Shown one piece after another: positions 5,078 to 9,294 of a stretch of 64,000 nt of DNA. Position 1 is the stretch's first letter. Every line of letters starts with the position of its first letter. Both the position numbers and the translations under genes were made by a program. The stretch is taken from assembly GCF_036689815.1 (NCBI RefSeq), contig NZ_JBAHUR010000002.1, positions 248,001 through 312,000 of the forward strand, written 5' to 3'. This stretch comes from Magnetovibrio sp. PR-2 (GTDB lineage Bacteria; Pseudomonadota; Alphaproteobacteria; Rhodospirillales; Magnetovibrionaceae). The notes under the pieces were generated by a model, which made no database searches, was not told the origin of the DNA, and saw only the letters and a program-made list of their open reading frames with translations.

Positions 5078-6145
5078 CTAATCAGAGTTTGAGCGAGCCG
5101 TCGTCACGTCTTGCCCCATACCTTCCATGCGCTTGTGCCAGCGCTCACGGGCCAAAGCCTGCATGTCTTCGACTTTGTCCAGTTCGTCGGTAATCTCCAA
5201 CCCTATAAGGGTCTCGACCACGTCTTCCAACGTCACCACACCTTGCACGGCACCGTACTCATCAACAACCAGCGCGATATGGGCCTTGTCGCGCATCAGC
5301 CGATCGTAGGTATCCGACGCGCTTGCGCTGTCTGCAATCACGATAAAATCGCGTTTGAAATCGTGCAGCATGCGTTCAAACTCGTCGCGTGCTTGGGCGA
5401 TCAACAAATCCGTTTTCAGCACGTAGCCTTGAATATCGTCGCTGCTGTCGACAAAAACGGGAATGCGCGAAAACGGTGTTTGGGCGTGGTTGGAAAAGAA
5501 GACCTCCACCGACATGTTGCCAGACACGGAAAAGATCACCGGGCGCGGCGTCATAATGTCGCGCACGGACAGCTTTCTCAGCTTGATCAGGTTGGACGCG
5601 ATTGAGTGTTCCTTGTCATCCAACACGCCTTCGTCACGACCGATCTGCAGCATCGCTTTCATTTCTTCACGGCTGTAGGTGTGCGCCGTCGCATCCGCAG
5701 GCGAGATTAAGCGGGTGAGTTTTTCCGAAGCCCAGACAATGGGGTGCAGAGCAATGGCCATGGCCTGAATGGTCCGCGCCACAATGGGGGCCAGCCCCTG
5801 CCAATACGTCGCGCCCAAGGTCTTGGGGATGATTTCGGAAAACACCAAAATCAAAAACGTCAACACGCCCGACGTAATGCCCAAATACTCATTGCCGAAC
5901 ACCACCGTCGCCTGCGCGCCCACGCCCGCCGCACCAACTGTGTGGGCAATAGTGTTCGCGGTTAAGATCGCCGCCAAAGGTCTGTCGATGTTATCGCGCA
6001 ACTTCGCCAAAAGCTGCGCCGTGCGGGTTTCGGGATCAAGCGAAGCAACGTAAGACGGCCGAATGGATAGCAACACCGCTTCGGACACGGAGCAAATGAA
6101 CGACACGCCGATGGCGAGCATGAGATACAAAAACAATAAAGTCAC
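5078..6145 (-). CDS. CNNM/HlyC-CorC family protein (DUF21 plus CBS pair)
   Basis: This 355-residue inner-membrane protein has an N-terminal DUF21/CNNM membrane domain (about 1-170; helices at 3-25, 60-85, 90-112 and 118-140; signature SEIIPKTLG) followed by two CBS domains (about 195-310; DIMTPRP and VVDEYGAVQGVVTLED). Family members are implicated in Mg2+/Co2+ efflux or resistance. It lacks the extra C-terminal CorC/HlyC domain beyond a short tail. A degenerate copy of its first 55 codons sits about 1 kb away at 7138-7306. The start at 6145 keeps the complete first membrane helix. Confidence 0.88.
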   Translation of the reverse strand: MTLLFLYLMLAIGVSFICSVSEAVLLSIRPSYVASLDPETRTAQLLAKLRDNIDRPLAAILTANTIAHTVGAAGVGAQATVVFGNEYLGITSGVLTFLILVFSEIIPKTLGATYWQGLAPIVARTIQAMAIALHPIVWASEKLTRLISPADATAHTYSREEMKAMLQIGRDEGVLDDKEHSIASNLIKLRKLSVRDIMTPRPVIFSVSGNMSVEVFFSNHAQTPFSRIPVFVDSSDDIQGYVLKTDLLIAQARDEFERMLHDFKRDFIVIADSASASDTYDRLMRDKAHIALVVDEYGAVQGVVTLEDVVETLIGLEITDELDKVEDMQALARERWHKRMEGMGQDVTTARSNSD

Positions 6146-6281: not shown

Positions 6282-6461
6282 TTGAGCCACACGCCTCCCA
6301 AAGAGCCCATCGCAAGCCCCTGCATTGGCATGTGCACATTGAACGATCAAGACATCTGTATCGGCTGCTGCAGAACCCTCAACGAAATCAAGGCATGGGG
6401 CGATGCGGATGACAGCGCGCGCCGGGCTATACTTGAGCGTGTCTCTAAACGCCCCCCTTGA
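6282..6461 (+). CDS. DUF1289 small cysteine-rich protein
   Basis: The protein contains SPCIGMC and CIGCCRTLNEI followed by a conserved Trp, the DUF1289 pattern of four or more cysteines that probably binds metal. The frame is open from an ATG at 6180, but the TTG at 6282 is preferred: it has AGGA eight bases upstream and gives a 59-residue protein of the usual size, while the extra N-terminus looks unlike anything conserved. It is followed after 23 bases by the SET-domain gene on the same strand. Function of the family is unknown. Confidence 0.75.
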   Translation: MSHTPPKEPIASPCIGMCTLNDQDICIGCCRTLNEIKAWGDADDSARRAILERVSKRPP

Positions 6462-6484
6462 AGCCAAACAAACGAGAGCATTCC

Positions 6485-6874
6485 ATGAAAAATGCCAAAC
6501 ACCTGAAAGTCTTTGATGCGAAAACCGGGCAAGGCCTGAAGGCCTTAAAATCCTTCACCGCAGGCGAAGAGCTGATTGAGTACCTGGGCCCCAGAATTCA
6601 CAGCGATGAAGCCAATGAAAACCCCAACCCCTACCTCTTTGGCCTCAATGAAGACTACTGCATCGACGGCTCATCCCTGTCCAACCTGGCACGCTACATC
6701 AATCATTCCTGCACGCCCAACGCACAAGCCGTGTTAAGCCATGACGAGCTCAGCATCACCATTGAAGCCATAAAGCCCATTGAGGTCGGCGATGAAATCC
6801 TGATCGATTACGGCGAAGAATATTTCGAAGCCTACATCGCTCCGATTGGGTGTAAATGTTCAAAGTGTGACTAG
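6485..6874 (+). CDS. SET-domain protein, putative lysine methyltransferase
   Basis: This 129-residue protein is a minimal SET fold: NHSCTPN at 73-79 (SAM pocket/pseudoknot motif), an ILIDYGEEYF segment near 105-114 with the catalytic-type tyrosines, and a C-terminal C-x-C-x2-C post-SET-like motif (C123, C125, C128). Such eukaryote-like domains occur sporadically in bacteria, with few known substrates. The start at 6485 follows a GAGAG ribosome site; an in-frame ATG at 6458 overlaps the upstream gene. It likely forms a two-gene unit with the DUF1289 protein. Substrate (ribosomal protein, histone-like protein or other) cannot be read from sequence. Confidence 0.85.
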   Translation: MKNAKHLKVFDAKTGQGLKALKSFTAGEELIEYLGPRIHSDEANENPNPYLFGLNEDYCIDGSSLSNLARYINHSCTPNAQAVLSHDELSITIEAIKPIEVGDEILIDYGEEYFEAYIAPIGCKCSKCD

Positions 6875-7137: not shown

Positions 7138-7306
7138 ACCGCATTGATGCTGCAACTTCGCCAGCAACTTCACCGTCCGAGTTTCTGGATCGAGCGAGGT
7201 TATGAAAGACGACCGTATCAACAACAATACCGCTGCGGACACGGAACAGAAGAACGATATACAGATGGCGAGAAGAATCTGCTAAATGAAAAAAGCTTAA
7301 TATGTC
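7138..7306 (-). pseudogene. Degenerate duplicate of the CNNM gene 5' end
   Basis: The minus strand here is clearly similar to the start of the gene at 5078-6145, including bases just upstream of its start (CTTAATATGTC in both places), the SVSEAVLL-like region and the shared SLDPETRT peptide. It covers roughly the first 55 codons with substitutions and small indels, then similarity stops. There is no membrane-domain remainder or CBS domain. It is best read as the remnant of a local duplication. The stretch 6988-7137 next to it shows nothing I can identify. Confidence 0.7.
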
Positions 7307-7437: not shown

Positions 7438-8552
7438 TCACTCTTCCATAGGCGGCAACGGACCACGCCAAAAAGGTAATTCATCCCAATCACGAGGGAA
7501 CCCCATTCGTGACTGCATACCAAATTGAAACCTGTAGATCAGCGGTTTAAAACGTGCGTACCAAGTTGTGGTCTCTGATATCCGGTTCAACAACAAGTGC
7601 ATTGCCGCGCAGGTCACATACAACCCCTGTTTCGGTAAGGCATCCTGCAATTGACTGGGATCAGCCAACATTTCCTTTGTTATATCTTGGTAGATTTCGG
7701 GGTAATACTCCCTGGGAAACACCATTGTTTTTGGGCTCCTGAACCAAATCGGTTCATGGTGAGCACAAGCATTTCTTACCTCAATCAAAGTACTCAGCAC
7801 AGAACGAAGGGGTCGCGTATGAAAGCCAAACTCCTGCGAAATAGCATCGGCATATTTTTGGTGAAGAATGTTAAAGATGTTGACGAGAACTCCAAAAGAA
7901 ATTCGGTGCATAATGTGGTAAGGTGAATACTCATTTATCACATCTGCGATTTTGTCTACGTCTTTCAATTTTTGGAGCTCCTCCAAATCAGACTGAAGAC
8001 CTTTCTTTGCATCTTCATTTTTCTCGCTTCGAATCGCATCCTTCAAATAAGCGACGACTTCACCTCGACCTTTATGAACAATATTATTGTAGAGCCGCTT
8101 GTTTCGGTTGTTAGTTAAGTTGTAATGGTGACGGGCAAACAGTTTGATTGTTTGAAACCCCTCATCACCCCTATCCGAGTTGTTTCCAATGTGCGAAATG
8201 ATCTTTCCACGTAAAGCAATTTCAATTTTTTCGACGGGGCCCAATAAAAACAATCGCAACTCACGGTCCAACACATACAAGTTAATGATATCGTTGAAGC
8301 TCGTCCCCTGCTCAAAGACCTCCTCAACCGCCTGTTTACCATCTGCGGTGGTCAATATTTTGCCGTGCTCGTCTATTTTTTTTGGTAGTACGGGAAGACA
8401 TATGCCCTCAACCGATGGTAGCCAATGACATTTAAATAATGACGTGCTCGATCATCGTCGCCGATGAATAGCCCCCGTCCTCTCATGAGTGAAATGAGTT
8501 CAGCGTCTTTCAGGAATGTCGAACGTTGGTTAATATCTTCCCATGGCTTCAT
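7438..8552 (-). pseudogene. Abi_2 (AbiD/AbiF-type) HEPN abortive-infection gene, frameshifted
   Basis: Two consecutive frames on the minus strand encode one Abi_2 protein. The first (from ATG at 8552) carries the family start with RGL and IGYHRLRAYVFPYYQ, then stops at 8373-8375. The second resumes at once in another frame and runs to 7438, including an R-x4-H HEPN ribonuclease motif (RNACAHH, near 7757-7780). The break falls on a run of eight A (plus-strand T at 8376-8383); nine would restore an uninterrupted protein of about 372 residues. It could be an inactivating mutation, a phase-variable tract, programmed slippage or an assembly error. The region is AT-richer than its neighbours, consistent with transfer. 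Confidence 0.8.
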
Positions 8553-8565
8553 GATGGATGTTCCC

Positions 8566-8640
8566 AAAAAAAAGGGCCTCCCCAGTTGCGCTATGCCAAC
8601 ACTCGCGTGCCGACTTAAGAAGCTGGGTAAGGCCTAATTC
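8566..8640 (-). ncRNA. Candidate structured RNA ahead of the Abi_2 gene
   Basis: About 75 nt on the minus strand form a closed structure: GGCCT and CCCAG at the 5' side pair with CTGGG and AGGCC at the 3' side, with a GC-rich inner region, and the outer stem is followed directly by eight T (8573-8566). This is a rho-independent terminator shape lying only 13 bases before the toxin-like gene start. A candidate promoter precedes it at 8647-8675. The arrangement promoter, RNA, terminator, toxin is that of RNA-antitoxin (type III-like) modules; an abiF RNA motif upstream of Abi_2 genes has been reported by comparative genomics. Homology to that motif was not tested. Confidence 0.5.
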
Positions 8641-8646
8641 GCAATC

Positions 8647-8675
8647 TATATAACAGGGCCGATTCGCTTGAACAA
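8647..8675 (-). promoter_or_regulatory. Candidate sigma-70-type promoter of the Abi_2-associated RNA
   Basis: On the minus strand TTGTTC (8675-8670) is followed after exactly 17 bases by TATATA (8652-8647). Both boxes are imperfect matches, but spacing is ideal and the predicted start near 8640 coincides with the 5' end of the structured RNA. Confidence 0.35.
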
Positions 8676-8780: not shown

Positions 8781-8809
8781 TTGACTTACGCACGACAAGT
8801 ACACAAGAT
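8781..8809 (+). promoter_or_regulatory. Candidate promoter of the divergent structured RNA
   Basis: TTGACT at 8781-8786 is followed after 17 bases by CAAGAT at 8804-8809. The -35 box is good, the -10 box weak. The predicted start near 8816 fits the beginning of the hairpin element that ends at 8889. Confidence 0.3.
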
Positions 8810-8815
8810 GTCGTT

Positions 8816-8889
8816 GATCGGCCCGCCACGCCCCTCAAGATATTGCCTTTAAGGCTTGATCTGGGGGCGCAACTGGCGGGTCTTTTTTT
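8816..8889 (+). ncRNA. Candidate second structured RNA ending in a terminator
   Basis: On the plus strand CCCGCCA and CGCCCC pair with GGGGGCG and TGGCGGG, with an inner GCCTT-T-AAGGC palindrome, and the outer stem runs into a T-tract at 8881-8889. No plus-strand gene lies upstream for it to terminate, which favours an independent transcript of about 73 nt. It shares the exact 10-mer GCGCAACTGG at the same place (3' side of the outer stem) with the RNA candidate at 8566-8640 on the other strand. It may instead be just a terminator. Confidence 0.4.
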
Positions 8890-9218
8890 CGTTCAAATCG
8901 TAAAGTTTCCATCGAAATGTTAAGGAAACACCAACGGGCAAATCATTGGGGGTGGAGCAAATGAATTTCCCTCCAAACCTCGTTCGCTCCCTGCAAGTCC
9001 GCCCTTGATGTGTGAGCCTTCGCCAAGGGCACTCAAATTCGAACGCCAACGTCGCGCTCTCTCAACCTTACGAATTGAACCCCAATGTCGAGACAAACCA
9101 CCGCGCACATGCGTAACCGGACATCAACTAACGCATGTATCCGCACAAAAACTGCGTCGAAAAGTTACCTCATTTTGGGAATGGCTCCAGCAGGCAAAAC
9201 ATAAGCTCTTGAAAAGCT
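8890..9218. other. Gene-free stretch between the RNA candidates and tRNA-Glu
   Basis: About 330 bases with several short overlapping open frames on both strands but none with a plausible ribosome site or recognisable product. No integrase remnant and no repeat of the tRNA 3' end were seen by eye, although the position downstream of a tRNA gene is a typical island site. Confidence 0.4.
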
Positions 9219-9294
9219 TGGCGACCCCTACGGGATTCGAACCCGTGTTGCCGCCGTGAAAGGGCGGTGTCCTAGGCCTCTAGACGAAGGGGTC
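9219..9294 (-). tRNA. tRNA-Glu (anticodon TTC)
   Basis: The minus strand folds as a complete 76-nt tRNA: seven-base acceptor stem GACCCCT/AGGGGTC, D-arm TCTAGAGGCCTAGGA, anticodon stem-loop CCGCC-CTTTCAC-GGCGG with anticodon TTC, T-arm with GGTTCGAATCC, discriminator G and an encoded CCA at 9221-9219. The gene is transcribed towards the Abi_2 islet, so the islet lies at its 3' side. Confidence 0.96.

Follow-up and report, generated by a model that had tools for sequence, protein, structure and literature searches.

At the end of a tRNA-Glu gene, the window (the whole stretch of DNA that was analysed, 64 kb in length) appears on balance to carry a divergent RNA-antitoxin module of the AbiF/AbiD type, in which a degenerate leader or attenuator, here called R1, is combined with a separate canonical abiF RNA, here called R2. 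The system is of a known kind and of unusual build, with its degenerate leader, a canonical RNA on the opposite strand and a split toxin frame. The evidence consists of the parts themselves and their positions, the family to which the toxin belongs, the match of R2 to an RNA family, and the conservation and covariation of the leaders of related genes.

Toxin gene and reading frame

Judged by its sequence, the toxin is an Abi_2/AbiF-type HEPN protein. The main frame (7438..8448, minus strand), which holds the Abi_2/HEPN domain, covers positions 52-302 of the Abi_2 profile, is assigned to AbiD by PADLOC and matches PF07751 (Abi_2) with an E value of 2.2e-27 and 97 bits, against a cut-off of 25.6 (97.6 bits in the whole-genome search). 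Its RNxxxH (R-x4-H) motif reads RNACAH at codons 7776-7759, of which R194 and H199 do not vary among the aligned relatives; other invariant residues are also kept, and apart from the break described below the 305-aa frame is open. The fold can be regarded as settled, because a profile of the relatives of the toxin matches PDB 8vz6 with an E value of 4e-85; 8VZ6 is a solved AbiF-RNA complex (PMC12737573).

The frame that begins at the ATG, however, is not the one in which the domain continues. This N-terminal frame (8373..8552, minus strand; 59 aa, Abi_2 profile positions 12-56) runs for 59 codons up to a TAG at 8375-8373, and from there the domain is continued in another frame. The two frames, 8552-8373 and 8448-7438, meet at a tract of eight A (A8, 8376..8383, minus strand) that reads CAA AAA AAA TAG in frame, and an intact single ORF was not found. 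The tract that precedes the stop contains the heptamer A AAA AAA followed by TAG. This heptamer is a known -1 slippery sequence, and single-base changes in homopolymers also come from mutation, phase switching or sequence errors. The break at A8 may thus be a mutation, a phase switch, a site of slippage or a sequence error. An earlier note on this DNA, made from the sequence alone, had described an Abi_2 gene with an R-x4-H motif; family and motif hold, but the split of the frame at A8 had been overlooked.

In a tree with its relatives the toxin stands on a very long branch, and the nearest full-length relatives share 26-29% identity with it. Samples of the class and the phylum rendered no closer relative with more than 36% identity over half of the protein, and no close relative was found in viral contigs scanned with the single toxin protein.

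The leader R1 and its promoter-like sequence

Directly ahead of the toxin gene, on the same strand, lies R1 (8566..8640, minus strand), a long hairpin which together with a tract of eight U forms an intrinsic terminator 13 nt ahead of the toxin ATG. Reading the minus strand, the arms of the stem at 8634-8623 and 8585-8575 pair with each other (GGCCUU-A-CCCAG / CUGGGGAGGCC), the U8 tract occupies 8573-8566 and, after 13 nt, the ATG follows at 8552-8550, so that the stem, the eight T and the 13-base gap are all located where the earlier note had placed them. As in an AbiF-type module, a terminator, formed by R1 and its U8, stands between a short RNA and the start of the toxin.

The folding energy of R1 is about -29.1 to -29.3 kcal/mol, with a z-score of -2.2 to -3.3 relative to dinucleotide shuffles, a value that varies with the chosen ends. 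A scan of both strands of the 64 kb for stable hairpins directly 5' of at least 7 T in 8 bases gave as its top two sites R2 (8820-8889, plus strand; -35.1 kcal/mol) and R1 (-29.1 kcal/mol), with the remaining sites at -20 to -27 kcal/mol; shuffled 64 kb windows contained 1-6 sites each at or below -20 kcal/mol, the energies being compared at that cut only.

The promoter-like sequence TTGTTC-17-TATATA (8647..8675, minus strand), with boxes at 8675-8670 and 8652-8647 separated by a 17-nt spacer, shares 7 of 12 bases with the consensus and was not listed by a consensus promoter scan; taken alone, it is therefore not above chance. The distance from its -10 box to the stem is 12 nt, as in the relatives, and by this agreement the box ranks in the top 3% of window positions. 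The promoter that had been proposed for R1 thus stands with regard to its boxes and to the spacing of its -10 box, but its match to the consensus is weak.

Leaders of related Abi_2 genes

Two sets of related Abi_2 loci were compared, one of 97 loci that come from genomes, plasmids and a single phage record, and one of 73 loci, almost all from viral contigs. Just 5' of the Abi_2 genes there is a conserved element made up of AACAnnA, a CCCGCC-type stem, A, NGC, a loop, GCN, CANNNN, the stem again and a U tract. An abiF-type hairpin-terminator is present in the sense leader of 89 of the 97 genome and plasmid loci, as counted with a covariance model that included 36 of those loci and no sequence from the window, and in about half of the 73 viral loci. 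All significant matches among the 170 relatives were in the sense orientation, none being found antisense at E < 0.05.

Compensatory changes affect 8 of 10 pairs in an alignment of 36 leader sequences (35 cells, compared with 4.8 in shuffles), the members of which were chosen by a descriptor that itself demands pairing, and 10 of 10 pairs in an alignment of 92 leader sequences (118 cells, compared with 19 in shuffles), which was fitted to the model with a bias towards structure. The covariation that the earlier note had proposed to look for is hence present in the stems of the relatives. The genome carries a second Abi_2 gene, which likewise has a canonical abiF-type leader (L001:2169-2240, minus strand; 24.6 bits), with a branched apical part and located directly 5' of its ATG.

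The architecture put forward at the outset, that is a promoter, a hairpin RNA with a terminator and a HEPN/Abi_2 toxin, is thus conserved in those 89 of the 97 loci, and it is that of the experimentally studied RCd22-AbiF (PMC12373285), where the RNA, co-transcribed with abiF, terminates ahead of the gene and neutralises the protein both in cis and in trans. Since the relatives keep the leader hairpin-terminator, the architecture can be ascribed to the known AbiF (RCd22/AbiFr) type.

Many of the loci without an abiF-type leader have other hairpin-terminators at the same place. One such alternative hairpin, AACTGAGCCCGGCC...GGCCGGGCCTTCTTATAT, is common to the phage-borne Abi_2 genes L171, L172, L175, L176, L187, L191, L192, L194, L195, L198 and L207; it lies ~220-320 nt before the Abi_2 match, is missed by the abiF models and possibly represents a second type of leader RNA for Abi_2 genes. 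An assignment of R1 to the second phage leader class (ACTGAGCCCGGCC...) was considered and rejected, as there was no clear fit.

Comparison of R1 with the abiF family

A search of the segment with the Rfam abiF model (RF03085), which the earlier note had suggested, left R1 without a match up to an E value of 10 in a 501-nt search, the match to the family appearing on the other strand. With two covariance models built from the relatives R1 scores 6.6 bits, which is not significant. Its best fold is a continuous stem in which part of the linker strand is paired away. A relaxed abiF core, GC..GCGCAACUGG (5' stem-A-GC, 3' GCGCA-ACU-stem), is present in R1 and likewise in 19 of 983 other hairpin-T sites, a chance level of ~2%. 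The two-stem fold with an unpaired 3' linker that is typical of abiF can be drawn on this core, at a cost of 5 kcal/mol over the best fold.

In position and architecture R1 resembles an abiF leader, while neither Rfam nor the custom models recognise it. The proposal that it is a new or divergent member of the family is weakly supported: the leader position and the relaxed core speak for it, but the score and the cost of the abiF fold speak against it. The best reading of the sequence is that R1 sits at the conserved leader position and has probably drifted far from the abiF consensus. Leader RNAs that belong to diverged Abi_2 genes escape the abiF model of Rfam.

The divergent RNA R2

R2 (8822..8889, plus strand) is located ~180 nt farther upstream than R1, on the opposite strand and directed away from the toxin. 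It is an abiF-type hairpin, CCCGCC-A-CGC...GCG-CAACU-GGCGGG, with the terminator UCUUUUUUU. RF03085 matches it at 8822-8881 (plus strand) with 29.7 bits and an E value of 0.004 in a search of the whole 3.75 Mb genome, in which it is the only match at E<=1; the score is below the Rfam gathering score of 37, and the alignment spans the full model and both stems, with a 28-nt apical insert in R2. In searches of the 64 kb, the model of the relatives gave 23.0 bits (E 3.6e-4) and that of the 92 relatives 26.5 bits (E 2.8e-5). The fold has a z-score of -5.2 to -5.7, and the abiF fold is within 2.4 kcal/mol of the best one. Other matches to the custom models in the genome were discarded as abiF RNAs, three of them (L124, L125, L127) being simple terminators and one (L123) a stretch within coding sequence with mismatched pairs.

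With R2 on the plus strand and the Abi_2 gene on the minus strand, R2 is not a sense leader; an antisense counterpart gave no significant match among the 170 relatives, and the AACA 5' flank conserved in the family is absent from it. It was also considered as the leader of a remnant toxin gene, a possibility that was rejected since there is no trace of Abi_2 on the plus strand between 6000 and 9400. A weak promoter-like sequence, TTGACT-17-CAAGAT (8781..8809, plus strand), can be read at a suitable distance 5' of R2, and the promoter profile of the relatives found no match upstream of R2, this sequence included.

R1 and R2 have in common GCGCAACTGG, a stretch that has no further copy in the window and half of which is family consensus, and the 3' strand GCGCAACUGG is present in both. 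By plain local alignment their likeness is not significant, 851 of 5000 shuffles being as good.

This distribution of features bears on an alternative that we consider improbable, namely that R1 is a transcription attenuator only, no longer an antitoxin, and that R2 alone acts as the antitoxin in trans. The abiF fold and scores of 23-29.7 bits are indeed found in R2 and not in R1, and the action of RCd22 in trans besides cis (PMC12373285) would agree with it; however, R1 still retains the relaxed core and the GCGCAACUGG strand of R2, and the promoter of the family is not recognisable at R2.

Genomic setting

The tRNA-Glu gene (9219..9294, minus strand) marks with its 3' end the limit of synteny with related genomes and the edge of a probably inserted segment: relatives of the genus and the family align with the window only rightwards from about 9196-9219, where the tRNA-Glu gene ends. 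The module consequently lies in a segment that is absent at this site from the tested relatives, and this segment was probably inserted at the end of the tRNA-Glu gene, to judge from the alignments. An attachment-site repeat was sought in the window and not found. Of the two Abi_2 genes of the genome, one adjoins R2.

Several other features were observed close to the module. As a neighbour of the module, 6458-6874 encodes a small SET-domain protein of bacterial type (PF00856, E 5.6e-21). The gene at 5078-6145 is partially duplicated (76%) in its 5' part, the stretches concerned being 5998-6118 and 7152-7272; CNNM/CorC-type models match the protein of this gene below their thresholds.

A module in decay, with the toxin a frameshifted pseudogene, R1 a degenerate leader and R2 what remains of another module that has lost its toxin gene, is in our view an unlikely explanation as well. 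It would account for the broken frame at A8, for the very long branch of the toxin together with the degenerate state of R1, and for the fact that R2 faces a region free of Abi_2 remnants that ends at the edge of the island. On the other hand, the remainder of the 305-aa frame has stayed open with RNxxxH and the other invariant residues in place, the hairpins of R1 and R2 rank first in stability within the window and so show no visible decay, and A AAA AAA TAG is a classic -1 slippery site too. That R1 and R2 are ordinary terminators of unrelated transcripts, near an Abi_2 gene by chance, is very improbable, for although R1 goes unmatched by the models, a hairpin-terminator occupies exactly its place in almost all relatives, and R2, the best abiF match of the genome, is adjacent to one of the two Abi_2 genes found there.

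Proposed mode of action

For the AbiF/AbiD module that we favour, we infer transcription, termination, RNA binding, antitoxin activity and a phage trigger. Most transcripts from the R1 promoter would end at the R1 terminator as a leader RNA of ~75 nt, toxin mRNA would be scarce, and R1 would in this way attenuate the toxin transcript in cis, by analogy with RCd22-AbiF. The toxin would act as an Abi_2 HEPN ribonuclease, and R2, possibly with R1, would bind the protein and silence it in trans, R2 being the better candidate. Full-length toxin would require, from the present frame, a -1 slip at A8, so that the module could be set to a very low level, be switchable or have no activity.

More tentatively, and with little confidence, it could be proposed that the antitoxin function has been split between two separate RNAs with divergent transcription, of which the canonical abiF RNA acts in trans and the diverged leader mainly as an attenuator, and that toxin synthesis is additionally gated by -1 slippage at A8. 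Each of the oddities of the module, that is the degenerate R1, the opposite-strand R2 and the split frame, could be explained as decay. Cas13 and its guide RNAs are held to descend from AbiF proteins and their RNAs (PMC12737573, PMC12373285). If the proposal were true, a leader turned into a plain attenuator next to a free-standing abiF RNA would amount to an antitoxin RNA independent of the toxin transcript, and this independence is a step required of a guide RNA.

Comparison with known systems

Type III toxin-antitoxin systems of the ToxIN kind share with the module the order of RNA, terminator and RNase toxin. They differ from it in having tandem repeats and ToxN, in place of which the module has a HEPN/Abi_2 fold; by reading, no tandem direct repeats of the ToxIN type are present in the leader sequence, and R1 is one hairpin. 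R2 shares with the abiF RNA of RF03085 the full model and both stems, while the 28-nt insert, a score below the gathering one and the opposite orientation set it apart. PbAbiF-AbiFr (PDB 8VZ6; PMC12737573, PMC12373285) is likened to the module by the profile match of the relatives at E 4e-85 and by the presence of one hairpin RNA per protein; AbiFr, however, is described as one cis-encoded RNA, and neither PMC12737573 nor PMC12373285 mentions a second, divergent one. AbiF-RCd22 of the Clostridioides difficile prophage phi027 (PMC12373285) has in common with the module an Abi_2 HEPN protein with RNxxxH and a terminator just before the gene. The present module is also likened to it in that RCd22 is a ~100-nt RNA with its own promoter, read-through of which gives the toxin mRNA (PMC12373285). 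RCd22, however, carries two abiF motifs in one sense RNA, whereas here the toxin frame is split and one degenerate sense hairpin is accompanied by one canonical motif encoded on the other strand.
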